From Silanimonas sp. (GTDB lineage Bacteria; Pseudomonadota; Gammaproteobacteria; Xanthomonadales; Xanthomonadaceae), in NCBI RefSeq assembly GCF_027531545.1, contig NZ_JAPZSC010000039.1, positions 1-34,379 of the forward strand: DNA of 34,379 nt. Direction: 5' to 3'. A program made the translations under genes and the position numbers. The notes under the pieces were generated by a model. It was not told where the DNA came from, did not search any database, and worked only from the letters and a program-made list of their open reading frames with translations. Of the stretch, positions 2,633-31,611 are shown one piece after another. How positions within the stretch are numbered: the first letter of the stretch is position 1; each line of letters begins with the position of its first letter.

Positions 2633-3964
2633 ATGTCAACAGCCATCGCCTTCGAGCACGCGACCGTACACACCATGGCCGGGGACGAAGCCCTGCAGGA
2701 TCACACCCTGGTCGTGCGCGACGGCCGCATCGCGGCGCTAGGCCCCACGGCGGCGTTGGCAGTTCCTGCCGACGCGCAGCGCATCGACGCCACCGGCTGG
2801 CACCTCCTGCCTGGCCTGGCTGACATGCACGTACACCTGACGCCGCTGGGCGTGGGCGCGGCCGATGGCTTCGCCTCTGACGAAGCCGCCGCGCTGGCCC
2901 GCAGCGCCCAGGTGCTGCAGGTCTACCTGCTGCACGGCGTGACCACGGTCCGCAACATGGCCGGCACGCCCTGGCACCTGCAGCTGCGACAGGCCGTGCG
3001 CGAAGGCCGCGTGGCCGGGCCGCGCATCCACACCACCGGCCCCATCCTGGAAACGCGCTTCACCTTCGCGCAGCTGGCCGACTTCGGGCAGCTGGTGCGC
3101 ACGCCGGAAGAGGCGCGCGCCGCCGTCATCGCTCAGCACCACGCCGGGTACGACGCCATCAAGGTCTACAACGACATCGACGCCGAGGTCTACGACGCCA
3201 TCGTCGCCACCTGCCGCGAACTGGGCCTGCCGATGGTGGGCCACGTGGCCTACGCCAAGGGCCTGGCCGGCGCGCTGGCCGCCCGGCAGGATTCCATCGA
3301 GCACTTCCGCTCCTATGACTTCGCGCTTGACACGCGACCGGCACCCGATGGAGCGCGCTTCGTTGGCTGGCTGCACACCACGCCGGCACGCATCCGCGAG
3401 GTGGCCGAGCGCACCGCCGAGGCCGGTACTTGGAACGTGCCCACGCTGGTGATCGAGCAGGCCCTCACCAATCTGCCGCCCGCCGAGCCGCCACCGCGCC
3501 CGCGCTGGCTGCCCGCCTGGCTGCACGACGAACTGCAGGCAGACACCACACGCTCGGTGTTCAAGCCCGAGTTCCTGCAGGCCATCGAGGCCGGCCGCTA
3601 CCGCCGCTACGAGCTGCTCTCGGCACTGGACCGCGCCGGCGCGCCACTGATGGCCGGCAGCGACTGCCCGGGCTGCGGGCTGGTGCCCGGCCAGTCCTTG
3701 TTGGACGAGTTGGACCTATACGTCGAGGCCGGCCTCACGCCCCGCCGCGCGCTGCGCGCGGCCACCGTGGACGCGGCGCGTTTCCTGGGGCTGGGCGACG
3801 AACTAGGCACCTTGTCCACGGGCAAGCTGGCCGACGTGCTGGTGCTGCGCGCCGACCCTGGCGCCTCCCTGGCGGCGCTGCGCCAGCCGGTGGGCGTGGT
3901 GGCAGCCGGCGTGTGGCACCCGGCCGATGAACTGGCCGCAGCCATGGCCGCCAGCGCGACCTGA
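2633..3964 (+). CDS. Amidohydrolase 1 (imidazolonepropionase/prolidase-like)
   Basis: A metal-dependent hydrolase of 443 residues, expected to cleave an amide, peptide-like or cyclic C-N bond. All hallmarks of the binuclear amidohydrolase superfamily are visible: HVH (His66, His68) after LLPGLADM, Lys177 in AIKVYND as the likely carboxylated lysine, His204 in MVGHVAY, His224 in SIEHFRS and Asp344 in MAGSDCPG. The small N-terminal beta domain (VVRDGRIAALG) and the C-terminal GKLADVLVLRADP are typical. I prefer the ATG at 2633 over the one at 2588, because the latter overlaps the operator palindrome and adds 15 atypical residues; the ribosome site is weak. There is no signal peptide, so it is cytoplasmic. 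It lacks the CCPxH N-terminal extension of its two paralogues. Confidence 0.88.
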   Translation: MSTAIAFEHATVHTMAGDEALQDHTLVVRDGRIAALGPTAALAVPADAQRIDATGWHLLPGLADMHVHLTPLGVGAADGFASDEAAALARSAQVLQVYLLHGVTTVRNMAGTPWHLQLRQAVREGRVAGPRIHTTGPILETRFTFAQLADFGQLVRTPEEARAAVIAQHHAGYDAIKVYNDIDAEVYDAIVATCRELGLPMVGHVAYAKGLAGALAARQDSIEHFRSYDFALDTRPAPDGARFVGWLHTTPARIREVAERTAEAGTWNVPTLVIEQALTNLPPAEPPPRPRWLPAWLHDELQADTTRSVFKPEFLQAIEAGRYRRYELLSALDRAGAPLMAGSDCPGCGLVPGQSLLDELDLYVEAGLTPRRALRAATVDAARFLGLGDELGTLSTGKLADVLVLRADPGASLAALRQPVGVVAAGVWHPADELAAAMAASAT

Positions 3965-4034
3965 CAGGCAGGCCCGGCCGAGCCGCCGCTTGCTCCGCTT
4001 CAACCCCTTCGCCGCTTCCTCCAAGGAGACATCC

Positions 4035-5633
4035 ATGCACCCCACCCGCCTGCCCACCCAACCCGCGCCAATGCAGCGCCCCGGCCGCTGGCGCAGCTTC
4101 TGCTGCCCCATGCACATGGCCTGGGCGCTGCCCATGGGCATGGGAGCGGCCACCCAGGCCCCAGCCCCCGCCGGCCCGGTGCCCAGCTTTGTCGACGGCA
4201 CCGTGCACACGCTGTCGCCCTTTGCCACGCGCGGCGACGAGGCCACGCGTGACCTCTACGACACCGTGGCGCCGGACAGGCTGCTGGTGATCGAGGGCGC
4301 CACCGTCATCCCGATGCGGGGCGCCCAGGCCCTGCCGGCACACGATGTATTGGTGCGCGGCGGCCGTATCCGCGCCGTTCAGGCCACCGGCGCGGCCGTG
4401 CCCGAAGGCGCGCTGCGCATCGACGCCACCGGCCTGACGCTGCTGCCCGGCCTGGCCGACATGCACACGCACCCGGGCACGTCCACCTCGGCGCAGATGT
4501 GGGGCGCCATGCTGGGCGTCAGCGCCGACGTGATGACGCTGCCCTACGACCTGCAGATGTTCCTGTACCTGGCCGGCGGCATCACGCGCATCCAGGTGAT
4601 GGCCGGCACGCCCGAGTACCTGGCGCTGCGCGAGTCGCTGCGCAGCGGCCGCCTGCGCGGGCCGCGCATGCGCGTGGCCTCGCCGGTGATCGACGGCTAC
4701 CCGGCCGTCTGGTCGCCCACCATCACCTGGCAAGTCAGCGACGCAGCAGGCGGCCGCACCGCCGCGCGCCAGGTGCTGCAGGCCGGCTACGACTTCGCCA
4801 AGCCCTACACGCGCATGCCCTACGACGCCTACGTGGCCTTCAGCGCCGAGTGCAATGCGCTGGGCGTGGAGCGCACCGGCCACATCCCGGCCGAGGTGCG
4901 GGTGGAAGAAGCGCTGTTGCGCGGCCAGCGCGGCGTGGCCCACACCTTCGAGCTGTTCTACAACGACCCGCCCGAGAGCCGTACCAACCTGGGCCTGCTG
5001 GCCCGGCGCGCGAAGCTGTGCGCCGAGCTGGGCGTGACGGTGCAGACCACCTTCTGCGTGTCGCGCGCCTTCGAGTACGACATCGGCCAGGTCGGCCCCG
5101 ACGCCTACCCGCTGCACGACCTGCTCGACCCCGTGCTGCGCTGGCTGATGCACCCGGCCTCGCCCTTCCTGAAGGCCTTCGGGCAGGACCCGCAGATGCA
5201 GTACCAGGGCCGCGACTGCATCGCCCACACGCTGAACATGCTGCGTGCGCTGCATGCCGAGGGCGTGCGGCTGGTCACCGGCACCGACATCCCCAGCAGC
5301 AACGCCGCAGGGCACCACACTGCGCACGACGAGTTGGAGGTGCTGGTGCGCGACGTGGGCCTGAGCCCGCTGGATGCGCTGCGCACCGCCACCGTGAACG
5401 CGGCTGCGCACATGGGCGACAACGAGTCGGGCACGGTCGAGCCCGGCCAGCGGGCCGAGCTGGTGCTGCTGCGCGGCAATCCGCTGGACGACATCGCGGC
5501 GACCCGCCAAGTCGAGGCAGTGCTCATGGGCGATGCGCTGCTCACCCGCGCCGCCATCGAGCGCGGCCTGGACCGGGTTCGGGATTTGTATGGCGCGATG
5601 CCGGTGCCGCAGCACCCGGCAACCGAGCCCTGA
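4035..5633 (+). CDS. Amidohydrolase 2 with CCPxH N-terminal extension
   Basis: A paralogue of 532 residues. Metal-site residues are His144 and His146 (ADMHTHPG), Lys256 (YDFAKPY), His283 (TGHIPAE), His303 (VAHTFEL) and Asp418 (TGTDIPS). The ATG at 4035 follows AAGGAG at 7-nt spacing. An N-terminal extension of about 80 residues carries WRSFCCPMHM (19-28), matched in amidohydrolase 3 by WRTWCCPLHF. A hydrophobic, methionine-rich stretch follows (AWALPMGMGA), but there is no clear signal peptide. It lies 70 nt after amidohydrolase 1 and 20 nt before a VOC gene; the amidohydrolase-VOC order recurs at 13254-15811. The bond cleaved is unknown; its similarity to amidohydrolase 3 (e.g. GYDFAKPY, ELFYN) makes related substrates likely. 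Confidence 0.88.
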   Translation: MHPTRLPTQPAPMQRPGRWRSFCCPMHMAWALPMGMGAATQAPAPAGPVPSFVDGTVHTLSPFATRGDEATRDLYDTVAPDRLLVIEGATVIPMRGAQALPAHDVLVRGGRIRAVQATGAAVPEGALRIDATGLTLLPGLADMHTHPGTSTSAQMWGAMLGVSADVMTLPYDLQMFLYLAGGITRIQVMAGTPEYLALRESLRSGRLRGPRMRVASPVIDGYPAVWSPTITWQVSDAAGGRTAARQVLQAGYDFAKPYTRMPYDAYVAFSAECNALGVERTGHIPAEVRVEEALLRGQRGVAHTFELFYNDPPESRTNLGLLARRAKLCAELGVTVQTTFCVSRAFEYDIGQVGPDAYPLHDLLDPVLRWLMHPASPFLKAFGQDPQMQYQGRDCIAHTLNMLRALHAEGVRLVTGTDIPSSNAAGHHTAHDELEVLVRDVGLSPLDALRTATVNAAAHMGDNESGTVEPGQRAELVLLRGNPLDDIAATRQVEAVLMGDALLTRAAIERGLDRVRDLYGAMPVPQHPATEP

Positions 5634-5653
5634 CCAGAACCTGGAGAGCCGGC

Positions 5654-6511
5654 GTGTCACCCAAGACCCTCGACCACTTCGTCATCCTTGTCGAGCCACT
5701 GGAGCCGGCCGTGGCCGACTACCAGCGCCTGGGCTTCCACGTGCGGCCCATCGCACGGCACCTGAGCATCGGCTCCTCAAACGCCGTCATCCACCTGCAC
5801 CACACCTACCTGGAGCTGTTCACGCTGGGCGATGCGCCAGCCCTGTTCCAGGACGCCTACCGCCCGCGCCTGCAGGCTGGGCCCGGTCTGTGCCATGTCA
5901 GCCTGGATAGCCAGAGCCTGGAAGCCGACCAGGCCCGCCTGCAAGCCGCCGGCCTGCAGCCCGGCGCCATCGCCAGCGCGCGTCGCCGCATGGTGCACCC
6001 CGATGGGCGCGAGGACGAGACCGCCAGCTCGTTCATGTACTGCTGGCGCGAGCAGCACCGCTACCTGTCGCTGTTCGTCTCGCACCATGCCAAGCCCGAA
6101 ACCATCTTCATCGACGGTCACGTCAACCACGCCAACAGCGCGCAGGAGGTGACACGCTGCGTGTTCCAGTCGGAAGAGCCCGCACTGGACCTGCCCTACT
6201 TTCGCAGCCTGTACGGCCGCGCCGCGACCGACCGCACGGTGGACGGCTTCCGCTTCCTCGGCCCGCGTGGCGAGGTCAGCGAGGTCATCACTCCCGCCGC
6301 CGCGGCCGCCCGCTACGGCGCGGCGACGCCGGCAGCCGGCCTCGCCGGGCTGGGGGCGCTGCCGCTGGCGCTGCACTACCGCGTGGGCTCGATGGCGCAG
6401 TGCGAACAACACCTGCGCGGCGCGGGGCTCGACTCGGCCGCCGTGGGCGGCCGCTTGGTCGTGCCGGCCGCGCTGGCCTGCGGTGTGGTCACGGTCTTCG
6501 AGGCGGCTTGA
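5654..6511 (+). CDS. VOC (glyoxalase_3-like) family protein 2
   Basis: A protein of 285 residues starting at GTG 5654 behind GGAGAG. It opens with LDHFVILVEPLEPAVADYQRL, the first beta-alpha unit of the VOC fold with the usual metal-binding His (His8), then NAVIHLHHTYLELF. It shares this layout with VOC3 (NHIIQFHSNYFELL), so these two are closer to each other than to VOC1. A second, weaker module occupies the C-terminal half. It directly follows amidohydrolase 2, probably in the same transcript, and may act on that enzyme's product. The open frame upstream of the GTG is only an out-of-frame reading of amidohydrolase 2. Confidence 0.8.
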   Translation: MSPKTLDHFVILVEPLEPAVADYQRLGFHVRPIARHLSIGSSNAVIHLHHTYLELFTLGDAPALFQDAYRPRLQAGPGLCHVSLDSQSLEADQARLQAAGLQPGAIASARRRMVHPDGREDETASSFMYCWREQHRYLSLFVSHHAKPETIFIDGHVNHANSAQEVTRCVFQSEEPALDLPYFRSLYGRAATDRTVDGFRFLGPRGEVSEVITPAAAAARYGAATPAAGLAGLGALPLALHYRVGSMAQCEQHLRGAGLDSAAVGGRLVVPAALACGVVTVFEAA

Positions 6512-6543
6512 GCGCAAGCCTGCAGCAACCCACATCACCCGCC

Positions 6544-7286
6544 ATGACCGCCGTCGCCTTCAACGCCCGCATCACCGCCGAACTGCAGGCCCTGCAGGAC
6601 GCCGGCGTGCGCAAGACCGAGCACGTCATCACCAGCGCTCAGGGCGCATCAGCGACGGCGTGTTCTCGATGGACGGCCGCATCGCGCAGCTGGCCGAAAA
6701 GCGGCGCCTGTGCGACGAGCACGGCGCGCTGCTGGGCGTGGACGACTGCCACGCCACAGGCGTGATCGGCCCGCACGGCCGCGGCACGGCTGCGCACTGC
6801 GGCCTCTTCGGCCGCGTTGACCTCATCACCGGCACCTTCGGCAAGGCGCTGGGTGGCGCCTCGGGCGGCTTCACCGCCTGCAGCCGGCCCGTGGCCGATC
6901 TGCTGCGCCAGCGCTCGCGGCCCTACCTGTTCTCGAACACCATGGCGCCACCGCTGGTGGGCGCGGCGCTGGCCGCGCTCGACCTGCTGGAGAGCTCGGA
7001 CGCCGCCGTACAGCGCGTGCAGGCGCACGCGGCACGCTTCCGCACCGCACTGCAGGCACAGGGCCACACGCTCATCGGCAGCGGCCACCCAATCGTGCCG
7101 ATGATGCTGGGTGACGAGCAAGCGGCCAAGGCGCTGGCGCTGAAGCTGCACCACGCCGGCGTGCACGCGGTGTTTTCCTACCCGGTAGTGCCGCGGGGCC
7201 GGGCGCGCATCCGCACGCAGCTCAGTGCGGCGCACACCGGCGCCGATCTCGACGAGGCCGTGGCAGCGTTCGCCGCGACGGGCTGA
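6544..7286 (+). pseudogene. Broken kbl-like alpha-oxoamine synthase (internal deletion plus frameshift)
   Basis: The first 35 codons (from ATG 6544) match the N-terminus of the intact kbl product at 31687-32889, including DAGVRKTEH against DAGLYKTER and the following QGA. Reading then jumps at about 6648 into another frame at SDGVFSMDG, which is residue 183 onward of the intact protein. Some 146 codons are missing, along with the glycine-rich N-terminal active-site region, while the PLP lysine region [14 protein letters not shown] is kept. The downstream frame is open to the stop at 7284-7286. It cannot make a functional enzyme as a whole; a separate C-terminal peptide is conceivable but unlikely. 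It lies 32 nt after VOC2 and is the last gene of this run. Confidence 0.85.
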
Positions 7287-7294
7287 CGGGCATC

Positions 7295-7320
7295 GGCCTT
7301 GTCTGGCTCAAGCCAGGGCC
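7295..7320. terminator. Possible bidirectional hairpin between convergent genes
   Basis: CTGGCT and AGCCAG separated by 2 nt, flanked by GGCC on both sides with a 4-nt bulge, can form a G+C-rich hairpin. It lies between the convergent ends of the broken kbl-like gene and the XRE regulator. There is no T-run, so the terminator call is weak. Confidence 0.3.
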
Positions 7321-7350
7321 AACAGGTGTACGGACCCAGGCAGCAGGACC

Positions 7351-8028
7351 TCAGGGGATGCCGCGCGTGCCCTTGCCCAACTGCCCCGGGTTCATGCCCG
7401 TCGAGGTGAGCCAGCCCTCCACCGCGAGCACCTCCAGCGGCCCGGCGGGCAGGTCGACCATCTCGTGCGGCACCTCGCCGCGGTAGGTCAGCGAGTCGCC
7501 CGGCCGCAGGTGGTAGCGCCGCTCCCCGATCTGCATGATCAACTCGCCGTGGATCACGTGGTCGATCCAGAAGCCATCGAACTGCACGGGCTTCGGGAAA
7601 CGGCAACCGGGCGCGGCAAGCATTCGCAGCAGCCGGATCTGCATGCCCGGCAGCTCCATAGAGCCCAGCAGGGTGAGCTGCACGCCGTCGTGCAGGTCGC
7701 CGCCCGGCAACACCGGCTCCTGCCCACGGCTCACCAGTTCGGGCTCCATCGACGCTGCCGGCCCGCCGAACAGGTCGGACAGCTCAATACCCAGCCCCTC
7801 GGCCAGCGCCAGCAGCACCGGCACCGAGGGCATGCGCTCGGCGCTCTCGATCTTCGAGAGCATGGCCTTGCTGATGCCCACGGTCTGCGCCAGCGCCGAG
7901 GCCGTCATGTGCTGGTGCATGCGGTGGGTGCGCAGCCGCCGCGCCAGGGTGTGGCGCAGGTGGCTCACGCGTGGGTGGCCGTCGTCGGCTACTTCGTCGA
8001 TGGGTTCGGGGCGGTCGTGGTCGCTCAT
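7351..8028 (-). CDS. XRE-family regulator with C-terminal cupin domain (regulator 1)
   Basis: A DNA-binding protein of about 225 residues. A helix-turn-helix of the lambda-repressor type occupies about residues 25-86 (TASALAQTVGISKAMLSKIE followed by a short linker and LLALAEGLGIELSDLF). A cupin barrel follows at about 150-205 (HVIHGELIMQIGERRYHLRPGD, then VPHEM). Such XRE-cupin proteins sense a small metabolite through the cupin and usually repress catabolic genes. The ATG at 8026-8028 (MSDHDRPEP) is preferred; in-frame ATGs at 8035-8037 and 8056-8058 are alternatives. It lies 48 nt downstream of the TonB receptor on the same strand and may be co-transcribed with it. It is the simplest candidate to bind the three TTGAC...GTCAA sites (inference). 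Confidence 0.85.
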   Translation of the reverse strand: MSDHDRPEPIDEVADDGHPRVSHLRHTLARRLRTHRMHQHMTASALAQTVGISKAMLSKIESAERMPSVPVLLALAEGLGIELSDLFGGPAASMEPELVSRGQEPVLPGGDLHDGVQLTLLGSMELPGMQIRLLRMLAAPGCRFPKPVQFDGFWIDHVIHGELIMQIGERRYHLRPGDSLTYRGEVPHEMVDLPAGPLEVLAVEGWLTSTGMNPGQLGKGTRGIP

Positions 8029-8076
8029 CACCCGCATGCTAAGCCGTGCCGCCCGCATGGCGTCCCGATCGCCGCT

Positions 8077-10290
8077 TCAGAACCGGTAGGTGCCCGCCAC
8101 GCCAATGGTGCGCGGCCGCAGCGTCGACACCGTTTCCGGCCCAAACACGGTGGACGACAGCAGCGGCCGCTCGTCGGTGAGGTTGTTCACGAAGGCCGTC
8201 AGCGTCAGATCGCCGATGTCCACGCCGAAGCGCAGGTCCATGGCCGTGTAATCGCCCAGCGTGCGCCGGGTGGCCGGCGTGTAGCTGCTCTGGTAGCCGC
8301 CGACATGCTGCAGGTTGAAGCCCAGGTTCGCAGGCCGCCCCGCCACGTCGAAGTCATAGCGCACAGAGCCGTTGGCCGTGACGCGCGGGATGCCGGCGCT
8401 GCGCGTGCCGCCCGGCGTCACGCCGCCGGTGGAGTCCAGGCCCACGACGTTCTGGCTGAAGGTGCTGTCGGTGTAGCCCACGCCGGCTGAGAGACGCAGG
8501 TTAGACGAGGGCCGCGCCACCACCTCAATCTCGAAGCCCTGCACGTCCACCGAAGCGCCCGGGTTCAGACGGCCCAGCGAATCGACATAGGTGAAGCCCC
8601 CCACCGCGGGCGGCGAAGCAAGTGTCAGCTGCGGGTTCTTCCACTTCGTCTGGTACACCGCCGCGTTGAGGTTGACGCGGTTGTCGGCCAGCGAGAGCTT
8701 GGCGCCGGCTTCGTAGGTCCACAGGCTGTCCGACGTGGCGAATGGCGGCACGAAGAAGGTGACACCGGGCGGAATGGCCAGCGGGAAGTTGGTCTTGCCC
8801 AGCCGGAAGCCCTTGGATGCCTGCACGTAGTAGGTGCTGCGCGTGTCGCTCCAGCTCAGCGAGACGTGCGGCGTGGTCGGCGTTTCCTTGATCACGGAGC
8901 TGTTCACCGTGGTCGCGCCGAACTGCGTCAGGTTCACCTGGTCGTCGCTTTCGTAGCTCGTGCGCCGCAGGCCGGCGTTCACGGCCACGCCATTGCCAAA
9001 CTTGTAGCCCAGCTCACCGAACAACGCCGTCTGGCTGCGGTCGATGATGGTGTCGCTGCCGAAGGCGTTGCCCAGCCCTGGCACCGGTGTGGTGCTGTAG
9101 TTCAGCGTCTTCTCGGTCGACCAGAACAAGCCAGCCGACCAGGTCAGCCCCGTGGTCGCCTCGGCCGACACCAGCCGCAACTCCTGCGCGGCCACGCGCG
9201 AGTCGAATCCGCCGAAGAGCACCCACTGCGTGTCGGCGGGCAAACCGAAGGCGGCGTTGAACGGGCCGAACGACGCCGTCAGGTCACTGACATACCGCGC
9301 CTTCTTGTCGAAATAGGACGTGGCCGACACGATGTCGAAGCCCGGCATCTTGTAGGTGATCGACAGGTTCGCGGCCTGCAGCTTGTCGCTCTGCGGTTCG
9401 AGCACGGCCTTGCTGCCAATCTGCAGGTCGGTGCCGACGTTGTAGACCGAGGTCGAGTCCTGCTTCAGGTCTTGCAGGTAGAGGCGGCCACTCACGCTGA
9501 GTTGCGGCGTCGGCTGTGCGAACAGCGCGATGCGCGCGCCGCTGGTGACGACCTTGTCGACGTCCTTCCCAAGTGCCCCGGCATCGATCACGCCGGCCTG
9601 CTCGGTGCGGTAGGCCGTCAGGCCCAGGGCCACGACGTCCTTCACCAGCGGCACCGAGACGCCCGCCACGGCCTCGCTGTTCCAGTCACTTGCGCCGTTC
9701 GTCTTTGACAGGCCCAGCCGACCGTACGACTCCATCGCCTTCAGGCTGGGGTTGCGGGTGGTGATCTTGATGGTGCCGCCCAGCGATGCCGAGCCATACA
9801 AGGTGGAGCGCGGGCCGCGGATGACGAGCACGTTCTCGATGTCGAACAGGCCCAGGTCGATGTTGCCGTTGCCCTGCACCACGCTGGTGGGGATGTCGTC
9901 GATGTACATGGCCACGGTGGACTGCGTCAGGCCGACGGCCGCACCATCCGAGACACCGCGGATGGCGATGCTGCGCGTCAGCGGCGAGCCCGCCTTGGTG
10001 AACACCACGCTGGGCTCGCCCGGCAGCGCCTCTTCGAGGCTGGACACGCCGCGACGCTCCAGTTCGTCGCCGGTGATCGCCTTCACCGACAGTGGCACGG
10101 CCTGCAGCGTCTCGGTGCGCTTGGTGGCGGTGATGGTGATGGTCTCGACGCCGGTGTTGGCCGCTGGCGCCTGCTGTGCCGCGGCACCCAGCGGAACCCC
10201 AAGGGCGGCGGCCAGACAGGCGCTCAGCGGCGACAGGCGCGGCGCGGAACGGACGAACGAAGACCGGCGGTGGGAGCAGATGCGGGACAT
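8077..10290 (-). CDS. TonB-dependent outer-membrane receptor
   Basis: A receptor of 737 residues for energised uptake across the outer membrane. It has a signal peptide (about 1-38, ending LGAAA-QQ), a TonB-box-like segment ETITITATK (49-57), a plug domain with the conserved DIENVLVIRGPRSTLYG and GGTIKITTRNP, and a 22-strand-type barrel ending in the required C-terminal phenylalanine (GTYRF). The start is supported by GAGGAG 5 nt upstream of the ATG. No siderophore biosynthesis gene is nearby; with an XRE-cupin regulator downstream and a divergent catabolic operon, uptake of an organic substrate is more likely than iron. The promoter region carries operator site C and a TTGACA -35-like element. 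The ligand cannot be read from the sequence. Confidence 0.92.
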   Translation of the reverse strand: MSRICSHRRSSFVRSAPRLSPLSACLAAALGVPLGAAAQQAPAANTGVETITITATKRTETLQAVPLSVKAITGDELERRGVSSLEEALPGEPSVVFTKAGSPLTRSIAIRGVSDGAAVGLTQSTVAMYIDDIPTSVVQGNGNIDLGLFDIENVLVIRGPRSTLYGSASLGGTIKITTRNPSLKAMESYGRLGLSKTNGASDWNSEAVAGVSVPLVKDVVALGLTAYRTEQAGVIDAGALGKDVDKVVTSGARIALFAQPTPQLSVSGRLYLQDLKQDSTSVYNVGTDLQIGSKAVLEPQSDKLQAANLSITYKMPGFDIVSATSYFDKKARYVSDLTASFGPFNAAFGLPADTQWVLFGGFDSRVAAQELRLVSAEATTGLTWSAGLFWSTEKTLNYSTTPVPGLGNAFGSDTIIDRSQTALFGELGYKFGNGVAVNAGLRRTSYESDDQVNLTQFGATTVNSSVIKETPTTPHVSLSWSDTRSTYYVQASKGFRLGKTNFPLAIPPGVTFFVPPFATSDSLWTYEAGAKLSLADNRVNLNAAVYQTKWKNPQLTLASPPAVGGFTYVDSLGRLNPGASVDVQGFEIEVVARPSSNLRLSAGVGYTDSTFSQNVVGLDSTGGVTPGGTRSAGIPRVTANGSVRYDFDVAGRPANLGFNLQHVGGYQSSYTPATRRTLGDYTAMDLRFGVDIGDLTLTAFVNNLTDERPLLSSTVFGPETVSTLRPRTIGVAGTYRF

Positions 10291-10413
10291 GGAGACTCCT
10301 CGGGGGTTGTAGGGGGGTGCAGACCGGAATGACAGCGATACAGGGCGGCGGGTTCGCCGCCCGTCCCGGCCCGTTCAGGGTGCGGCAGGGCGTGCCGAGA
10401 CTGTTCCATCGAG

Positions 10414-10428
10414 TTAACCTATTGTCAA
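10414..10428. promoter_or_regulatory. Putative operator site C (TTAACCTATTGTCAA)
   Basis: It lies in the 220-bp divergent region between the TonB receptor and the MFS gene, 131 bp from the former's start and 90 bp from the latter's. It matches the perfect palindrome of site B at 11 of 15 positions. On the minus strand it contains TTGACA, a perfect -35, with AACAGT 17 bp further on, so it may overlap the receptor promoter. Confidence 0.5.
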
Positions 10429-10510
10429 CTTCTAGGAATCCCGGTAGCGTAGTCGCCACACGCGGCAGCAATGAGACTCCGAATGATCAGCACGGAGTCC
10501 GTAACCCTCG

Positions 10511-11893: not shown

Positions 11894-11898
11894 GCCCC

Positions 11899-13224: not shown

Positions 13225-13253
13225 ACCTCATCCACCTCGGGAGCCCCACCACC

Positions 13254-16698: not shown

Positions 16699-16737
16699 CC
16701 GCCCCGCGCCTGCCCCTGCCCTCCACGAGAACCCCTC

Positions 16738-18087: not shown

Positions 18088-18103
18088 GCCGCAGAGCCGG
18101 TCG

Positions 18104-19225: not shown

Positions 19226-19264
19226 ATGTCGCTTCGACCTTTCCACACCACCTGAAGGAGTCCC

Positions 19265-20350: not shown

Positions 20351-20359
20351 AGGCCCTTC

Positions 20360-21142: not shown

Positions 21143-21941
21143 GATCCGCGCCCGCTTCGCCGCCATGGCCTGGCCCATCTCGGGCCTGCTGTGCCTGGTG
21201 TTGCTGTGGCAGGGTGCCACGCAAACCGGGCTGGTGCCCAGCTTCCTGCTGCCATCGCCCGGCAGCGTGCTGCGCGCACTGCTGCGCGCCGCCGGGGAAG
21301 GCACGCTCTGGCGACATCTCGCGCCCACGCTCACGGCCACCGTGATGGGCTACGTCATCGGCTGCACGGTGGCCGCCGTGGTGGCCGCGCTGGTCGCCGA
21401 GTTCAAGCGGCTCGAGCGGGCCCTGATGCTGCACCTGCTGGCCTTGCAGTCCATCCCGAAGGTGTCGGTAGCACCCCTGGTCTTCCTCTGGGCCGGCTTC
21501 GACATCGGCGGCAAGGTCGTGCTGGTGGCGCTGATCTGCTTCTTCCCGGTGTTCGCCAACACCCTGGCCGGGCTGCGCGCCACCGACGCCGACCGCCTGG
21601 ACCTGCTGCGTGCGGCGGGTGCCAGCCGCTGGCACGTGCTGTGGCACCTGAAGCTGCCGTCGGCGGCGCGCTCGATGTTCGCAGGCCTGGAGATCTCGAC
21701 CGCCTTTGCACTGATCGGTTGCGTGGTGATGGAGTTCATCGGTTCCACCCGGGGCATGGGCTTCCTGATCCAGGACGCGTCGTCGACCTACGATCTGCCG
21801 CTGTCGTTCGCGGCCATCGTGACGCTGGGCGGCATCGGGCTGCTGGCCAATGCCGGTGTGCGCGTGCTGCGGCGGCGCCTGCTGTTCTGGGAAGCGGACA
21901 CCGAGCCGAGCCCGGCAGCCCAGGGAGACAGCGGTGGCTGA
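21135..21941 (+). CDS. ABC transporter permease 1
   Basis: A 268-residue inner-membrane permease of the binding-protein-dependent group. It has about six hydrophobic segments and an EAA loop (LRAAGASRWHVLWHLKLPSA) that docks onto the ATPase. Its ATG lies inside the last codons of the ATPase gene (8-nt overlap), which is why I chose it over an upstream in-frame ATG at 21069. It resembles permease 2 in layout, and the two probably form a heterodimer, unlike SsuC or TauC, which act as homodimers. Confidence 0.9.
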   Translation: MPEIRARFAAMAWPISGLLCLVLLWQGATQTGLVPSFLLPSPGSVLRALLRAAGEGTLWRHLAPTLTATVMGYVIGCTVAAVVAALVAEFKRLERALMLHLLALQSIPKVSVAPLVFLWAGFDIGGKVVLVALICFFPVFANTLAGLRATDADRLDLLRAAGASRWHVLWHLKLPSAARSMFAGLEISTAFALIGCVVMEFIGSTRGMGFLIQDASSTYDLPLSFAAIVTLGGIGLLANAGVRVLRRRLLFWEADTEPSPAAQGDSGG

Positions 21942-22710
21942 ACCGATCAAGGTGGCGCTGGCCACGACCGCTACGTTCCTGCTGCTGATCGCGACCTGGA
22001 CGCTGGCCATCGACGTCTTCGAACTGTCGCCACAGATCCTGCCCTCGCCTGCAGCAGTGGCCGAGGCCTTCTGGTACGGCTGGTCGCGGGGCGCCTTCGT
22101 GCCACACGCGCTTTTCACGGTGCAGGGCGCACTGGGTGGCTGGGCCATCGGCGCGGTGCTGGGCGCACTCGCCGGCGCGGTCGTCGCCGAGTCGAACGTG
22201 GCCAGGCGCGTGCTGTACCCCATGGTCATCGCGGTGCAGTCCATGCCCACGGTGGCCATCGCGCCCCTGATCGTCGTCTACTTCGGCGTCGACCTGCCGT
22301 CCAAGCTGGTGACGGTCGCCTTGCTGTGCTTCTTCCCGGTGTTCGTCAACACGGTGGCCGGCCTGACCTCGGCCGACACGCGCCTGCTGGACCTGTACCG
22401 CGCCAACGGCGCTTCGCGCTGGCGCACGCTGATCGACGTCAAGGTGCCCAGCGCTGCCGACGCCGTGTTCGCGGGCGCACAGGTTGCCATCGTGCTGTCG
22501 TTCATCGGTGCCGTGGTCTCGGAGTTCGTCGCGTCGCGCGCCGGGCTGGGCCACCTGATCAAGACCTTCGCGAACGACCTCAACGTCGCCGTGATGTTCG
22601 CCGCCATCGCTACGCTGGCCGTGCTGGGCGCCGGCATCGGCACCGCGTTGGCCCGCCTGCGCGAGGCCGTGGTCTTCTGGAAGCCCCGGCACGACTCACC
22701 GCGGCGCTGA
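21934..22710 (+). CDS. ABC transporter permease 2
   Basis: A 258-residue permease starting at GTG 21934 behind GGGAG and overlapping permease 1 by 8 nt. The EAA loop is YRANGASRWRTLIDVKVPSA. The mature protein has about six membrane segments (e.g. LIVVYFGVDLPSKLVTVALLC in part). A longer frame from ATG 21850 adds a cysteine/arginine-rich stretch that is only the shadow of permease 1. It completes the importer; the 80 nt that follow before the next gene are the longest gap in this part of the run and could hold a promoter or processing site. Confidence 0.9.
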   Translation: MAEPIKVALATTATFLLLIATWTLAIDVFELSPQILPSPAAVAEAFWYGWSRGAFVPHALFTVQGALGGWAIGAVLGALAGAVVAESNVARRVLYPMVIAVQSMPTVAIAPLIVVYFGVDLPSKLVTVALLCFFPVFVNTVAGLTSADTRLLDLYRANGASRWRTLIDVKVPSAADAVFAGAQVAIVLSFIGAVVSEFVASRAGLGHLIKTFANDLNVAVMFAAIATLAVLGAGIGTALARLREAVVFWKPRHDSPRR

Positions 22711-22790
22711 GACCCGAGAACAGGCCCGGCGCGGCGCACCGATCGAACTGAACTTCCCTGAAGACACCCACAACGACTGGAGATGAGCCC

Positions 22791-23819
22791 ATGACTCCGA
22801 CCATGAAAGCCGCCGTGGTCCATGCCCACGGTGGCCCCGAACAGACCGTGTTCGAACCCGCCTGGCCACGCCCGGCCGTGCAGCCCGGCTACGTGCTGCT
22901 GCGCGTGCGCGCCTGCTCGCTGAACTACCACGACATCTTCACCCGCCGCAGCATGCCCGGCATCAAGGTGCCGTTGCCCATCATCATCGGTTCGGACATC
23001 GCCGGCGAAGTGGCCGAGCTGGGCCCGGGCGTGAGCGGCTGGACGGTGGACGACCGCGTGATGGTCGACCCGCTGCCGGTGGCCGGCGAGGGCGCGCCCA
23101 AGGGCATGATCGGCGAGATGTACGACGGTGGCCGCGCCGAGTACTGCCTGGCCTGGGCGCAGCAACTCGTCAAGCTGCCCGACGACGTCGGCTACGAGGT
23201 GGCCGCCAGCCTGCCGCTGGCCTATGCCACCGCACATCGCATGATGGTCACCATCGGCCAGGTGAAGGCCGGCGAGACGGTGGTGGTGCTGGGCGCCAGC
23301 GGCGGCGTGGGCACGGCCTGCGTGATGCTGGCCAAGCTGGCCGGTGCACGCGTCATCGCCTGCGCCGGCAGCGCCGACAAGGCCGAGCGGCTGAAGGCGC
23401 TGGGCGCCGATCACGTGCTGAACTACCGCGAACAGAAGGTGATGGACGCCGTGCATGCGCTGGTGGGCAAGCCGCGCATTAGCGGCAGCGGCGGGGTGGA
23501 CGTGGTGGTCAACTTCACCGGCGGCAACAGCTGGCAGGAAGGCATCCGCTGCCTGAAGGTGGGCGGCCGGCTGCTGACCTGCGGCGCCACCGCCGGCTTT
23601 GATGAGCACATCGACGTGCGCTACGTGTGGACCTTCGAGCTCAAGCTGATGGGCAGCAACGGCTGGCGCCGCGAAGACATCGTGTCGCTGCTGGAGCTGG
23701 CACGCAGCGGACGCATGAAGCCGGTGATCGACAAGGTGCTGCCGCTGGAGGACATCCGCGAGGCCGAGCGCCTGATGGAGGAGCGCGAGGTGTTCGGCAA
23801 GATCGTGGTGACGCCATGA
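22791..23819 (+). CDS. MDR-family NAD(P)H oxidoreductase (quinone oxidoreductase/alcohol dehydrogenase-like)
   Basis: A 342-residue medium-chain dehydrogenase/reductase. The catalytic GroES-like domain (CSLNYHDIFTR, IIGSDIAGEV) is followed by a Rossmann domain with GASGGVG (168-174). Asn45-Tyr46 in place of the catalytic-zinc Cys, and the absence of the four-Cys structural zinc lobe, point to a zinc-independent reductase such as quinone or enoyl(-CoA) reductase rather than an alcohol dehydrogenase. The ATG follows GGAGATGAG. Its stop overlaps the start of the hotdog thioesterase (ATGA). With the acyl-CoA ligase and thioesterase it forms a tight CoA module; reduction of an enoyl or keto group on the acyl part is plausible. 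Confidence 0.85.
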   Translation: MTPTMKAAVVHAHGGPEQTVFEPAWPRPAVQPGYVLLRVRACSLNYHDIFTRRSMPGIKVPLPIIIGSDIAGEVAELGPGVSGWTVDDRVMVDPLPVAGEGAPKGMIGEMYDGGRAEYCLAWAQQLVKLPDDVGYEVAASLPLAYATAHRMMVTIGQVKAGETVVVLGASGGVGTACVMLAKLAGARVIACAGSADKAERLKALGADHVLNYREQKVMDAVHALVGKPRISGSGGVDVVVNFTGGNSWQEGIRCLKVGGRLLTCGATAGFDEHIDVRYVWTFELKLMGSNGWRREDIVSLLELARSGRMKPVIDKVLPLEDIREAERLMEEREVFGKIVVTP

Positions 23820-24247
23820 GCAGCGGCACCGATCAGCTCGACCCCGTCGCCAGCCTGCAGCGGCAGTGCGACGCCTCACCCTTCATCCGCTTCGCGGCCA
23901 TCCGCGTGCTGAGCGTGGACATGAAGGCGCAGACCGCGCGCTTTGCGATGCCCTTTCGGCCAGAGTTCGAGCGCGGCCAAGGCACCGGACAGTTCCACGG
24001 CGGGCCGATCGCCTCGCTCATCGACACGGCCGGTTGCATGGCGCTCATCGCCGTGGCCGGGCGCGGCGCCGGCACGGTGGACTTCCGCACAGACTACCTG
24101 CGCCCGGCGGCCGGGGAGTTGCAGGCGCAGGCCCGGGTGCGCCGCGCGGGCCGTACCATGGGCGTGGTGGACGTGGACGTGACCGATGCCGCTGGCCGGC
24201 TGTTGGCAACAGGGCGCGGCACCTTCTTTCTGGAAGCGACAGCATGA
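23816..24247 (+). CDS. PaaI-type hotdog thioesterase
   Basis: A 143-residue single hotdog domain. The motif GQFHGGPIASLIDTAGCMAL (HGG at 61-63, Asp70) is the active-site segment of PaaI/YdiI-type acyl-CoA thioesterases, and TVDFRTDYLRPA is the second family signature. It would hydrolyse an aryl- or acyl-CoA, often as a safety valve that frees CoA. It overlaps the MDR gene and the acyl-CoA ligase by 4 nt each, so ligase and thioesterase would be made together. Confidence 0.88.
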   Translation: MSSGTDQLDPVASLQRQCDASPFIRFAAIRVLSVDMKAQTARFAMPFRPEFERGQGTGQFHGGPIASLIDTAGCMALIAVAGRGAGTVDFRTDYLRPAAGELQAQARVRRAGRTMGVVDVDVTDAAGRLLATGRGTFFLEATA

Positions 24248-25827
24248 CACCGCTGGATCAACGCACCGACCTGACCGTTAACCTGGGCATGACGCTGGAC
24301 GCCACGCGCGGGCGCGAGGCACTTGCCGTGATCGAGGTCCATGCCGATGGCACGCTTCGCAAGCGCTGGACCTACGGCGAACTGGACGACCTGATCAACG
24401 CGCTCGCCCGCGGCCTGTTGGCCCGCGGCCTGGTGCGGGGCGACCGTGTCGGCGTGATGGCCGCCAACAGCGTGCACGCGCTGGCGCTGATGCTGGGCAC
24501 CCTGCGCGCAGGCCTTGTGAGCGTGCCGGTGAGCCCGCGCGCCGGGGCCGAGACGCTGGCCTACATGGCCGAGGACTCCGCACTGCGCCAGGTGCTGGCC
24601 GATGCCGATCTGATGCCGCTGGCCCAGGCCCTGCCCAGCGCGGCGTCGGGCACGCTGCCGGTGCTGCCGCTGCAGGGCGACGGCTTCGCCGCGCTCGCCG
24701 ACCACGGTCCCTTCGAAGCCGTGGTGCCGTCCGCAGACGAGGTGGCCCTGGTGCTGTACACCAGCGGCTCCACCGGCCGGCCCAAGGGCGTGCTGCTGTC
24801 GCACCGCAGCCAGGTGCTGATCGCTGCAGGCTACGCCACCGACTTCATGCGCCAGTGCCTGGACAGCGGCCCTTCCATCGTGGCTGCACCGCTGTTCCAC
24901 ATGAACGCCACCGTGAACACCACGCACGTGTTCATGCTGCACGGCGCCTTCGTGCTGATGCCGCGATTCGATGCGGCAGGCTTCATCCGCGCGGTGAGCG
25001 AGCATCGCGTCAGCGTGCTGTCGGGCGTGCCGACGATGACGGCCATGGTGGCGCAGCAGCGCGCGGCCCTGGCGCAGGCCGATCTCGGCAACGTGAAGCT
25101 GGTCGTCATCGGCTCGGCGCCCCTGTCGGCCACGGTGCTGTCGCAGGTGCAGGCCCTGTTTCCGGCGGCTGCCGTCATCAACAGCTACGGCACCACCGAG
25201 ACCGGCGCCGGCTACTTCGGCGCACACCCGGCCGGCGTGGCACGGCCGTTCATGTCGGTGGGACATGCACAGCCGCACGCACGTCTGCGACTGGTCGACG
25301 GCGAGGGAGCGGAAGAGACCGGCGCCGAGGCCACGGGCGTGCTGGAGGTGCATTGCGCCACGCGCATGAACGGCTACCAGAACCGCCCCGAGCTCAGCGC
25401 CGAAAAGATGCGGGACGGCTGGATCCACACCGGCGACATCATGCGGCGGGACGCTGACGGCTGGTACTACTTCGTCGGCCGCGCCGACGACATGTTCGTC
25501 TGCAGCGGCGAGAACGTGTACCCCGGACAGGTCGAGCGGCTGATCGAGCGCCACCCCGACGTGCTGGAAGTTTGCGTGCTGCCGCTGGCCGACGAGCGGC
25601 GTGGCCACATCCCGGTGGCCTTCGTGGTGCCCAAGCCAGGGGCTGCGCCCACCGAGAAGCAACTGCAAGAGCACGTACTGGCCCTTGCCGCGCCGCACCT
25701 GCACCCCCGCCGCGTGTGGTTCCTCGAGCAGATGCCGCTGGCCGGCACCAACAAGATTGACCGCAGGGCGCTGGCCGAGCGTGCCGCGGGGTTGGCCGCC
25801 GCGGTGCCGGGCGGCGGTGGCGGGTAA
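24244..25827 (+). CDS. Acyl-CoA ligase (AMP-binding, ANL superfamily)
   Basis: A 527-residue adenylating enzyme that activates a carboxylic acid to its CoA thioester with ATP. Motifs: P-loop YTSGSTGRPKG (172-182), YGTTET (315-320), TGD (397-399), hinge region GRADDMFVCSGENVYP (412-427) and the catalytic lysine Lys504 in GTNKIDR. The acid-binding pocket region APLFHMNATVNTTHVFML includes the usual aromatic/His before it. Length is normal for fatty-acid, benzoate or phenylacetate-type ligases; the acid cannot be named. It starts at an ATG overlapping the thioesterase stop. There are no beta-oxidation genes in the window, so the CoA ester must be processed elsewhere or by the MDR and VOC enzymes here. 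Confidence 0.9.
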   Translation: MTPLDQRTDLTVNLGMTLDATRGREALAVIEVHADGTLRKRWTYGELDDLINALARGLLARGLVRGDRVGVMAANSVHALALMLGTLRAGLVSVPVSPRAGAETLAYMAEDSALRQVLADADLMPLAQALPSAASGTLPVLPLQGDGFAALADHGPFEAVVPSADEVALVLYTSGSTGRPKGVLLSHRSQVLIAAGYATDFMRQCLDSGPSIVAAPLFHMNATVNTTHVFMLHGAFVLMPRFDAAGFIRAVSEHRVSVLSGVPTMTAMVAQQRAALAQADLGNVKLVVIGSAPLSATVLSQVQALFPAAAVINSYGTTETGAGYFGAHPAGVARPFMSVGHAQPHARLRLVDGEGAEETGAEATGVLEVHCATRMNGYQNRPELSAEKMRDGWIHTGDIMRRDADGWYYFVGRADDMFVCSGENVYPGQVERLIERHPDVLEVCVLPLADERRGHIPVAFVVPKPGAAPTEKQLQEHVLALAAPHLHPRRVWFLEQMPLAGTNKIDRRALAERAAGLAAAVPGGGGG

Positions 25828-25881
25828 GCTGCGCCTCGCCGACCCCGACGTTCCGATGACCTGCTCCACAGGAGGCCGCTC

Positions 25882-26304
25882 TTGAGTCCCCACCCGAAGA
25901 GACCGGGGTTCCACTTCCGGGTGCGCTACGCCGAGTGCACGGCCCACGGCGAACTGGGCCTCGCCGGCTACATCAACTACTTCAGCGAGGCCGCGGCACA
26001 GGCGCTTAGCGAACGCGGCATGGATCTGCGCACGTTGACGTCCCGCTCCGGAGCCCTGCGCGAGGCCGGTTACGAAGTGGCGATCCAGGCCTCACCGGGC
26101 TACGACGACGAGTTGGAGGTCGAAGTGCGGCTGCACGAGCTGGACGAGCGCGGCTTCACGCTGGGCTTCGGGCTGCAGGCCGCGCGCGGTGGCAAGCCGC
26201 TGGCACGTGGCGCCATCCGCTACGACGCACGGTCATCGGGCCCCGATGGGGCCTGCCGCCTGCCTCTTGATCTGCACGGACTGCTGCAAGAGTGGCTCGT
26301 CTGA
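25882..26304 (+). CDS. 4HBT-like hotdog protein with altered active-site motif
   Basis: A 140-residue hotdog protein starting at TTG 25882, well supported by CAGGAGG 6 nt upstream. The segment RYAECTAHGELGLAGYINYF aligns with the 4-hydroxybenzoyl-CoA thioesterase motif (Y-x-D/E-x-D-xx-G...NY), but the catalytic Asp is replaced by Thr20. It may have weak or different activity, or use another residue. It lies 54 nt after the acyl-CoA ligase. The 3' part is ordinary beta-strand sequence ending LLQEWLV. Confidence 0.75.
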   Translation: MSPHPKRPGFHFRVRYAECTAHGELGLAGYINYFSEAAAQALSERGMDLRTLTSRSGALREAGYEVAIQASPGYDDELEVEVRLHELDERGFTLGFGLQAARGGKPLARGAIRYDARSSGPDGACRLPLDLHGLLQEWLV

Positions 26305-26374
26305 CCTGCAAGCCGACCGCCAGATCGGCGGGCGGAGTGCCTCTTCCAAACTACACCAGGCCGGAGCATCGTTC

Positions 26375-26845
26375 ATGACACAACCCCACCTTCAGCTGCA
26401 GCAACTGGGCATCGTGCTGCCCGCGGTGAGCGCGCCGGCTGCTGCCTATGTGCCCTGGGTGCGGAGCGGCGATCTGCTTTTCCTGTCGGGCCACCTGGCC
26501 AAGCGCAATGGCCAGGTCTGGGTGGGCCAGCTAGGTGCCACGCTGGACACCGCGCAGGGCCAGCAGGCGGCGCGAGCGGTCGCCATCGACCTGATGGGCA
26601 CGTTGGCCGCCGCGCTGGGGGGCGACCTGGGGCGGGTGCGCCGCATCGTCAAGCTGCTGAGCCTGGTCAACAGCACGGCGAGCTTCACGGAACATCACCT
26701 GGTCACCAACGGCTGCTCCAGCCTTCTGGTGGAGGTCTTCGGCGCCGACATCGGCAGCCACGCCCGCAGCGCCTTCGGGGTGGCGCAGATTCCGCTGGGA
26801 GCCTGCGTGGAGATCGAGCTGATCGCCCAGGTCGATCCGGCCTGA
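26375..26845 (+). CDS. RidA/YjgF family protein
   Basis: A 156-residue protein of the RidA family, which hydrolyses reactive enamine/imine intermediates made by PLP enzymes or amine oxidases. SGHLAKRNGQVWVGQLG and HARSAFGVAQIPLGACVEIELIA (split here for reading: HARSAFGVA and ACVEIELIA) are the conserved ends of the fold, and Arg131 corresponds to the arginine (Arg105 of E. coli RidA) needed for deaminase activity. The ATG follows GGAG. Both a possible imine producer (the FAD oxidase) and a PLP eliminase are encoded in the window, giving it obvious substrates. It lies 70 nt after the second hotdog gene. Confidence 0.85.
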   Translation: MTQPHLQLQQLGIVLPAVSAPAAAYVPWVRSGDLLFLSGHLAKRNGQVWVGQLGATLDTAQGQQAARAVAIDLMGTLAAALGGDLGRVRRIVKLLSLVNSTASFTEHHLVTNGCSSLLVEVFGADIGSHARSAFGVAQIPLGACVEIELIAQVDPA

Positions 26846-26873
26846 TGGGCACTCACCACCAGACGGAGTCCGC

Positions 26874-27704
26874 ATGAAGAAGCTGTTCATCAGCGCCGAC
26901 ATCGAGGGAGTGGCCTGCATCAGCGCGCCCGTCGAAGTGGACAAAGCCCACCCGGCCGAGTACGCGCCGTTCCAGCGGCAGATGACGGCCGAGGTGGCTG
27001 CGGCCTGCGCCGGCGCCTGGGCGGCCGGAGTCGAGTCCATCGTGATCAAGGACGCCCACTGGACGGCCCGCAACATCGATCCGCACCAGCTCGCCGTACC
27101 GGCCGGCAAGGCACTGAAGCTCATCCGCGGCTGGAGCGGCCATCCCTTTGCCATGGTGCAGGGCCTGGACGAGAGCTTCGACGCCGTGGCCTTCATCGGC
27201 TTCCACGCGGCGGGCGGCTGTGGGGGCAACCCGCTGGCACACACAGTCTCCAGCCGCGCCTTCGCGCGCGTGGAGCTCAACGGGCGCACGGCCTCGGAGT
27301 GCCTGATCTACGCCTACGCCGCTGCCAGCGTGGGCGTGCCGCTGGTGTTCCTGTCGGGCGATCAGCAGCTGTGCGACGAGGCCTCGGGCCTGATCGATGG
27401 GCTGCAGACAGTGGCCACGCTGCAGGGCTTCGGCGCTTCGGTGCAATCCATCCTGCCCGCCGAGGCCGTGCAGCGCATCCAGGCCGGCGTGCAAGCGGCA
27501 GTGCAACTCTCGGCCCGAGGCCCCGTGGTGGCACCACCGGCGCTGCCCGAGGCGTTCAACTTCAAACTGTGCTTCAACAAGGCCAGCGACGCCTACGCCA
27601 AGTCGTTCTATCCGCAGGTGCAGCAGGTGTCGGATACAGAACTGGTACTGGAAACACGGCGCTACTTCGACGTGCTGACCTTCTTGTGGTTCGCAGCGCA
27701 GTGA
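26874..27704 (+). CDS. D-aminopeptidase, DppA family (peptidase M55)
   Basis: A 276-residue zinc peptidase of the M55 family, which releases D-amino acids from the N-terminus of short peptides. Likely metal ligands are Asp9 and Glu11 (SADIEGVA), His62 (KDAHW), His111 (GFHAA) and Glu142 (GRTASECLIYAYAA), with His123 (LAHT) at the place of the catalytic His115 of B. subtilis DppA. It has no signal peptide. ATG 26874 follows GGAG. It is the last gene of the 17-gene run, 28 nt after RidA. It gives the operon a possible D-amino-acid end product, which could feed the FAD oxidase at the island's left end (inference). Confidence 0.87.
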   Translation: MKKLFISADIEGVACISAPVEVDKAHPAEYAPFQRQMTAEVAAACAGAWAAGVESIVIKDAHWTARNIDPHQLAVPAGKALKLIRGWSGHPFAMVQGLDESFDAVAFIGFHAAGGCGGNPLAHTVSSRAFARVELNGRTASECLIYAYAAASVGVPLVFLSGDQQLCDEASGLIDGLQTVATLQGFGASVQSILPAEAVQRIQAGVQAAVQLSARGPVVAPPALPEAFNFKLCFNKASDAYAKSFYPQVQQVSDTELVLETRRYFDVLTFLWFAAQ

Positions 27705-27780
27705 CTTGCGCGGGCGAACCAGCACTTGTAGGAACTGACCAGCACTTCGAGAGCCCGCTTTCAGTCCTCGAACCGTAGGA

Positions 27781-27837
27781 GCTGAACGACAGCAGTCGAC
27801 AGCGTGAGTTCGCGGCTTTCAGATGCAGTCGTTCAGC
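27781..27837. repeat. Inverted repeat between convergent genes (possible terminator/repeat)
   Basis: GCTGAACGAC at 27781-27790 is repeated inverted as GTCGTTCAGC at 27828-27837, extendable to 13 of 14 positions. It lies in the 305-bp gap (27705-28009) between the convergent DppA-like and MFS genes. The rest of the gap holds no gene and no T-run. It may be a transcription barrier or a degenerate intergenic repeat. Confidence 0.45.
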
Positions 27838-31561: not shown

Positions 31562-31574
31562 GGGGCGAGAAGCC

Positions 31575-31603: not shown

Positions 31604-31611
31604 GCACGGAG

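Follow-up and report, generated by a model that had tools for sequence, protein, structure and literature searches.

What does a compact set of amidohydrolases, VOC proteins, serine hydrolases and transporters, kept together on one contig, do for its carrier? The set (the island) lies in contig NZ_JAPZSC010000039.1, positions 1 to 34,379, of assembly GCF_027531545.1, filed as Silanimonas sp.; this whole stretch of 34,379 nucleotides is the window. It is contig C8 of the assembly (G000; 3.82 Mb, 73 contigs). G + C content of 70%. Gene content, gene order, conservation, selection and a shared palindrome were computed. The island is probably a co-regulated catabolic unit, importing and hydrolysing an N-acylated, possibly D-residue- and cysteine-containing peptide-like compound. 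An earlier note on this DNA had proposed one joint pathway; kept gene order, the shared palindrome and purifying selection support it. As to the substrate, itself putative, the compound proposed there, with acyl and amino-acid units linked through amide and ester bonds, is still the most economical reading.

Genes were called with Pfam and NCBIfam profiles and by self-comparison of the window; start codons were picked by the analyst. The gene set listed before (amidohydrolases AH1–AH3, VOC1–VOC3, two BAAT proteins, esterase, TonB receptor, ABC, MFS and CoA ligase genes) is present by these methods. A remnant of a glycine C-acetyltransferase gene (6508–7286) and a gene for a Cds1-like enzyme (18104–19225) are further members, missing from that list. 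The genes of the island are:
486–1628, minus strand: DAO1, FAD-dependent amine/amino-acid oxidase (PF01266).
1702–2364, minus strand: VOC1, short PF13468 protein, distant from VOC2 and VOC3 (Pfam, tree).
2633–3964, plus strand: AH1, prolidase/aminoacylase-like amidohydrolase, grouping with amidohydrolase AHb of the distant genome G247 (PF01979, tree).
4035–5633, plus strand: AH2, amidohydrolase paralogous to AH3, extended at the N-terminus by WR-x-[WF]CCP[LM]H (PF01979).
5654–6511, plus strand: VOC2, two-module VOC protein, paralogue of VOC3 (PF13468).
6508–7286, plus strand: KBL, glycine C-acetyltransferase gene, broken; copies of loci L027 and L028 intact.
7351–8028, minus strand: HTHc1, XRE-type regulator with cupin domain, candidate island regulator.
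8077–10290, minus strand: TBDR, TonB-dependent outer-membrane receptor.
10511–11893, plus strand: MFS1, inner-membrane carrier.
11899–13224, plus strand: BAAT2, acyl-CoA thioesterase/BAAT-type serine hydrolase, elbow GGSRG (PF08840).
13254–14906, plus strand: AH3, amidohydrolase with CCP-x-H extension as in AH2 (PF01979).
14903–15811, plus strand: VOC3, two-module VOC protein, overlapping AH3 and EST by 4 nt each (PF13468).
15808–16698, plus strand: EST, esterase with GHSLG; closest solved chains BES and siderophore esterases (PF00756).
16738–18087, plus strand: BAAT1, acyl-CoA thioesterase/BAAT-type serine hydrolase, elbow GASRG (PF04775 + PF08840).
18104–19225, plus strand: Cds1-like pyridoxal phosphate enzyme, L-cysteine desulfhydrase family (NF052478, below cut-off).
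19265–22710, plus strand: ABC importer, accessory, with an NMT1-type binding protein, an ATPase and two permeases; present only in the window and L028.
22791–23819, plus strand: ADH, zinc-type dehydrogenase/enoyl-reductase-like; G247 copy 62% identical.
24244–25827, plus strand: ACS, AMP-binding acyl-CoA ligase; G247 copy 42% identical.
25882–26304, plus strand: 4HBT-type thioesterase, weak match.
26375–26845, plus strand: RidA-type enamine/imine deaminase, not found in L027.
26874–27704, plus strand: M55 D-aminopeptidase, DppA-like.

Relatives were sought in named genomes with two peptide patterns from the AH2/AH3 alignment, a scan which diverged relatives can escape; 235 stretches matched, and eight of them, in five loci, encode a relative. 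Four loci are close: Rubrivivax sp. metagenome-assembled genomes (MAGs) L025, L026 and L027, and Burkholderiales MAG L028. The fifth (L029, Anaerolineaceae) is a weak match, 40% identical over 86 residues. Gene order is kept in all four close loci: VOC1 divergent from AH1-AH2-VOC2-KBL, the HTH and TBDR genes reversed, then MFS1-BAAT2-AH3-VOC3-EST-BAAT1-Cds1-ADH-ACS-thioesterase-M55. Proteins are 81–100% identical to those of the window, except the thioesterase (55% in L027, 80% in L028) and KBL, whose identity was measured against the other KBL of the window. Match tables of L025 and L026 are identical and both loci are close to the window; three lineages are therefore counted, including that of the window. 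The overlap of AH3 and VOC3 reported before is real (AH3 ends at 14906, VOC3 starts at 14903), and the 4-nt overlaps AH3/VOC3 and VOC3/EST, as well as the 20-nt gap AH2/VOC2, are identical in the window, L025, L027 and L028. The ratio of nonsynonymous to synonymous substitution rates between lineages is 0.07–0.37 for all 15 tested genes (14 present in the window; AH1, DAO1, ACS, thioesterase, RidA and ABC genes outside the set; KBL from L027 and L028 only), indicating purifying selection. Recurrence of the order in 4/4 close loci and selection on the 15 genes make the island more than a chance neighbourhood.

Alignment across lineages revealed a palindrome, TTGAC-N5-GTCAA, common to the VOC1-AH1 and TBDR-MFS1 intergenic stretches. 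Its sites in the window are:
2427–2441: operator-like palindrome near VOC1, one mismatch.
2574–2588: perfect palindrome, 44 bases upstream of AH1; no other exact copy in the assembly.
10414–10428: operator-like palindrome between TBDR and MFS1, one mismatch, also in L025, L027 and L028.

With at most one mismatch the window has no matches but these three, each lying in one of the two divergent promoter regions; 0.34 were expected, and none of 100 shuffles reached three. The exact palindrome occurs once each in genomes G000, G102 and G103, always 44–45 bases before AH1. A backward control pattern occurs 1, 2 and 2 times in the same genomes, so that one match or so per genome can be expected by chance; the repeated position, not the count, is telling. 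The L027 and L028 loci, seen without the AH1 promoter, hold one match each, not significant by count (one reached in 10/100 and 22/100 shuffles); its position, in the TBDR-MFS1 interval, matches that in the window. These sites support a reading of the island as one regulon, predicted from promoter sequence. HTHc1 is the natural candidate for the regulator acting there. The palindrome provides a direct handle for finding the inducer.

A more distant counterpart is present in G247, a genome of the same order but another family (65% complete). Amidohydrolases, TBDR, VOC, ADH, ACS and a POT-family transporter form a single locus there, which a contig break divides. Contig C88 carries an amidohydrolase, a BNR-repeat protein, an S15-type hydrolase, a second amidohydrolase (37% identical to AH1), the TBDR and the start of the VOC gene. 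Contig C187 carries the rest of the VOC gene, an AraC-type regulator, ADH (62%), ACS (42%), a third amidohydrolase and the POT-family transporter, followed by amino-acid biosynthesis genes. The contigs are joined by a 98-base overlap with one difference. The VOC protein is 47% identical to VOC2 over 164 residues. At E 1e-15 the VOC profile matched 0/38 other genomes of the G247 family.

An assemblage of several unrelated small operons, neighbours by chance and without a joint pathway, might be read from the divergent promoters and from ABC, RidA and DAO1 genes that come and go. It is very improbable, given the order kept in three lineages, the shared palindrome, the 4-nt overlaps and the partial counterpart in G247. 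For the co-regulated catabolic island, the points that count against it are as follows. Several members are inconstant among five genomes: the ABC importer is found in two (window and L028), intact KBL in two (L027 and L028) and RidA in four. DAO1 stands beside VOC1 in four of the five, not in L041 (the L027 contig, G102); in L042 only its first 60 residues are present, at the contig end. End reactions may accordingly vary from lineage to lineage. A search of G247 gave no BAAT domains, and those of its stretches that were searched showed no Cds1-like gene. The Cds1-like enzyme of the window matches nearly over full length (553.6 bits, E 2.1e-166) and misses the NF052478 cut-off of 600; for this reason it is called Cds1-like only. 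HTHc1 is tied to the palindrome by position only. With at most two mismatches the palindrome is not above chance in the window (7 against 5.3 expected), and with at most one it was not found in contig C88 of G247 (L106, 9.4 kb), the contig to which that search was limited.

Of the uptake genes named earlier, the ABC importer is accessory. The window stretch 19213–22787, which carries it, is absent from L025. In 500-base bins the window and L025 are 99.4–100% identical at 6000–18000 (dip to 95–98% at 4000–5500), 83–96% where alignable at 18000–26000 and 98–99.6% at 26000–28000. L028 is 95–97% identical to the window at 20000–22500 and mostly lower elsewhere. Since the diverged part lies between two near-identical sides, the segment carrying the importer was probably exchanged by recombination (allelic exchange).

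In the proposed pathway each enzyme activity is assigned from family membership, and the order of steps, the chemical class, the binding of HTHc1 to the palindrome and the role of VOC proteins are putative. Import of the compound would run through the TonB receptor and MFS1, joined in some lineages by the ABC importer. Ester and thioester bonds would be cleaved by the Fes-like esterase and the BAAT-type serine hydrolases. Amide bonds of acyl-amino-acid or peptide type would then be cleaved by AH1–AH3, metal-dependent members of the cog1228 branch, whose substrate would be prepared or processed by a VOC metalloprotein. The freed acid would enter CoA metabolism via ACS, ADH and thioesterases. 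The amino-acid part would be degraded by M55 (D-residues), DAO1 (oxidative deamination) and, where intact, KBL; the Cds1-like lyase would carry out beta-elimination, after which RidA would clear 2-aminoacrylate. HTHc1 would control the set through the TTGAC-N5-GTCAA operator. TonB-dependent catabolic loci for large substrates exist as a kind; as in these, receptor, hydrolases, carrier and CoA ligase are together under a local regulator. No description of a locus with this gene set was found in open-licence PMC papers. Identity of the substrate could give the VOC family a function and would put a name to a Burkholderiales catabolic trait for which MAGs are the sole source here.

The cog1228-type metal site (HxH, carboxylated Lys, two His, Asp) is present in AH1 and in the eight-sequence AH2/AH3 alignment, and metal binding is predicted. 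Solved relatives of AH1 and AH3, the two proteins matched to structures, include prolidases, arginine carboxypeptidase Cc2672, the amide hydrolase LlADH (an ochratoxin hydrolase) and bottromycin amidohydrolase. Metal-site residues and these relatives are thus shared with the prolidase/aminoacylase branch of cog1228. Unlike that branch, all three proteins are far below the Xaa-Pro dipeptidase cut-off (NF051886; 131, 99.6 and 80.1 bits against 500), AH2 and AH3 add the CCP-x-H extension, and both form a separate clade among 33 treed sequences. In this tree AH3 is the sister of AH2 (100/99), and AH1 falls together with a G247 amidohydrolase (94/95). The N-terminal stretch WR-x-[WF]CCP[LM]H is kept in 8/8 AH2/AH3 sequences (AH2 4035–4130, AH3 13254–13345). 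AH3 matched in 25/99 other related genomes, never above 35% identity. Among the parts available of related papers, PMC13081902 reports a bile-salt hydrolase that belongs to the amidohydrolase superfamily and depends on metal, and PMC10781821 describes a long-chain aminoacylase, citing cog1228 prolidase work but assigning its own enzyme to no branch there.

All three VOC proteins pass the PF13468 (Glyoxalase_3) cut-off of 25.1 bits (VOC1 117.2, VOC2 80.4, VOC3 94.9). In the two-module members H7, E53 and also H35, R118, H167 and N169 are invariant in 37/37 sequences, an alignment with eight rows from the island and two VOC1 rows excluded. VOC2, VOC3 and the G247 protein make one clade (100/99; inner order open), with VOC1 far outside. 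Gene arrangement is as noted earlier: VOC1 (minus) is divergent from AH1 (plus), and AH2 and VOC2 are adjacent, 20 nt apart. The claim of three amidohydrolase-VOC modules is retained as to arrangement, which exists in all three cases, and is reduced by the trees to one duplicated pair and an unrelated VOC1 facing AH1. Because AH2-VOC2 and AH3-VOC3 are paralogous and VOC1 is distant, three independent pairings are not in evidence. The repeated pairing, from which the earlier note drew a VOC protein acting on the amidohydrolase or in complex with it, is thus largely one duplication and does not support that idea as worded. AH2-VOC2 and AH3-VOC3 are read most simply, from the trees, as a duplicated pair, with VOC1 facing AH1 as a separate case. 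We know of no function for two-module PF13468 VOC proteins. In the part of PMC12424672 available, PF13468 is mentioned without tested activity.

There is a weak likeness to methylmalonyl-CoA epimerase. VOC3 scores 20.8 bits with TIGR03081, below the cut-off of 114.95; H7 and E53 align with the metal-ligand region of the epimerase in a weak alignment of the family profile with solved chains (E 0.012). VOC3 alone matched no PDB chain up to E 1. There is a slim chance that N-acyl-amino acids or peptides are epimerised (racemised) by VOC2 and VOC3 in a metal-dependent reaction that feeds a stereoselective amidohydrolase. The carrier could then use both stereoisomers of a D-residue-containing substrate, and the arrangement would be the VOC-fold equivalent of racemase-aminoacylase pairs. 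Such a role would explain the weak likeness to methylmalonyl-CoA epimerase, the D-amino-acid enzymes of the island, and the presence of the VOC family beside two unrelated amide hydrolases, those of the island and M20 enzymes in Pantoea, G465 and G897.

Adjacency of amidohydrolase and VOC genes in other genomes, as the earlier note expected, holds only inside the lineage of the island and loosely in G247, and is rare elsewhere. The VOC family is scattered, with matches in 22/298 other genomes of the phylum at E 1e-20 and usually with other neighbours. Loci outside the island and G247 number 28 (20 genome stretches, six plasmid stretches, L122 and L123), counted after 5/25 matches outside the assembly were left out and 6/77 plasmid records opened. 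An amidohydrolase of the island type lies near the VOC gene in one of them (L102; E 1.1e-10, weak, about 2.2 kb away). General adjacency is rejected on this count of 1/28. From the amidohydrolase side, one of 11 wider neighbourhoods (G247) held a VOC of the island family. In other genomes of the order the amidohydrolase profile at E 1e-50 matched 4/397 and the VOC profile at E 1e-20 matched 2/397; class-wide at E 1e-30, 1/320. Among 72,556 plasmid records, matches to AH3, BAAT1, VOC3 and TBDR were all below 60% identity and were rejected as plasmid relatives.

A milder form of the coupling survives. An M20 amidohydrolase stands beside the VOC gene in 3/28 loci; M20 is taken to be the family of these hydrolases, annotated 'amidohydrolase' and unrelated to AH1–AH3. 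The three genes, first seen by annotation (L047) and tblastn (L100, L122), are also the training set of the M20 profile. As in the island, a two-module VOC gene adjoins an amide hydrolase, e.g. in the Pantoea ABC/luciferase-monooxygenase operon (L047); unlike the island, the hydrolase is of the M20 family and the rest of the Pantoea operon differs. Two-module PF13468 proteins are thereby tied to amide hydrolysis in two unrelated settings, one of them a compact, apparently co-regulated island. Other neighbours of VOC genes are a gene about 50% identical to an FAD oxidase (L088, L094, L096 and L099), peptide-type ABC genes with an aminotransferase and FAD oxidase (two plasmid loci), and a 56% identical ADH about 1.1 kb away (G711, L095). 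On a Sagittula plasmid (L045:1-9840) a two-module VOC gene shares its locus, at a distance of some kilobases, with a gene annotated as L-2-amino-thiazoline-4-carboxylic acid hydrolase, a further hint at cysteine-derived substrates.

BAAT1 scores 84.3 and 77.5 bits for its two BAAT domains, and BAAT2 102.6 bits for BAAT_C (PF08840); BAAT2 is 38% identical to BAAT1 by self-comparison. The serine nucleophile elbow, GASRG in BAAT1 and GGSRG in BAAT2, is kept in 4/4 sequences each. In G000 and G102 every BAAT-domain match falls within the island (2/2 each). The KBL gene of the window is broken by an internal loss, its two remaining parts lying in different frames, and this remnant is common to L025 and L026. 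KBL of L027 and L028 are intact frames of 392 residues; the L027 copy scores 582.3 bits (TIGR01822 cut-off 493).

Synthesis of a small molecule, instead of breakdown, might also be suspected. ACS, ADH, an alpha-oxoamine-synthase-type enzyme and thioesterases would build the molecule, MFS1 would export it and the receptor would re-import a metal-loaded form. An enzyme of the alpha-oxoamine synthase family is indeed intact in L027 and L028, the top NCBIfam match of the receptor is a siderophore-receptor subfamily, and the top solved chains of the esterase are BES and siderophore esterases. However, the L027 enzyme passes the cut-off of glycine C-acetyltransferase, a step of threonine breakdown, and not that of BioF or serine palmitoyltransferase. 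Receptor and esterase miss the siderophore cut-offs by far (102.4 against 223.5 bits; 23.6 against 222 bits). No domain of nonribosomal peptide or polyketide synthases (NRPS/PKS) was found among 30 window frames scanned with Pfam. Three amidohydrolases, RidA, the Cds1-like lyase and M55 belong to degradative families. A biosynthetic island is distinctly unlikely.

For the catabolic island, one particular substrate class would be cyanobacterial peptides (microcystin, anabaenopeptin, aerucyclamide), degraded by an mlr-independent route. Handling of D-residues, cysteine and acyl groups would fit, and in L028 arginase, ornithine cyclodeaminase and MlrC-family genes follow 0.3–3.8 kb past the island. 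Paucibacter toxinivorans is a member of Burkholderiales. According to the available part of PMC8068134, it breaks down microcystins, anabaenopeptins and aerucyclamides without mlr genes, by enzymes still unknown. On the other side, G000, G101 and G247 lack MlrC-family genes, and G100, G102 and G103 have 4–7 copies; absent in some carriers and multicopy in others, these genes are not tied to the island. A literature search for the habitat of the carrier MAGs gave no paper. A cyanopeptide substrate is unlikely. As a separate candidate, a microcystin (mlr) link was rejected on the inconstancy of MlrC-family genes among carriers, the mlr pathway having been probed by MlrC only.

Assembly G000 holds two different rpoB genes (contigs C34 and C39; estimated contamination 1.37%). 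One shares 98.4% identity with the rpoB of a genome from the same genus, the other about 89% with those of Rubrivivax-type MAGs G100 and G102. With two distinct rpoB genes the bin is mixed, and the true carrier of the window is therefore uncertain. The window holds no tRNAs and no Rfam match at gathering threshold.

Beyond the island, the L028 locus (L043:3133-13726) carries arginase, ornithine cyclodeaminase, MlrC-family, thiolase-like and ABC ATPase genes (one of oligopeptide type) and another TonB receptor. A direct repeat of 776 bp (95.4%) at 232–1007 and 29900–30675 flanks the island of the window and holds the 3' part of the DAO gene; the right copy is without the front of this gene, and a single copy is visible in the parts of L038 and L039 that were seen. 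Outside the island, 30992–33839 carries a second XRE-cupin regulator, an intact KBL and a weak match to D-erythronate dehydrogenase (99.6 against 325 bits), the last two perhaps an ordinary threonine-breakdown pair.

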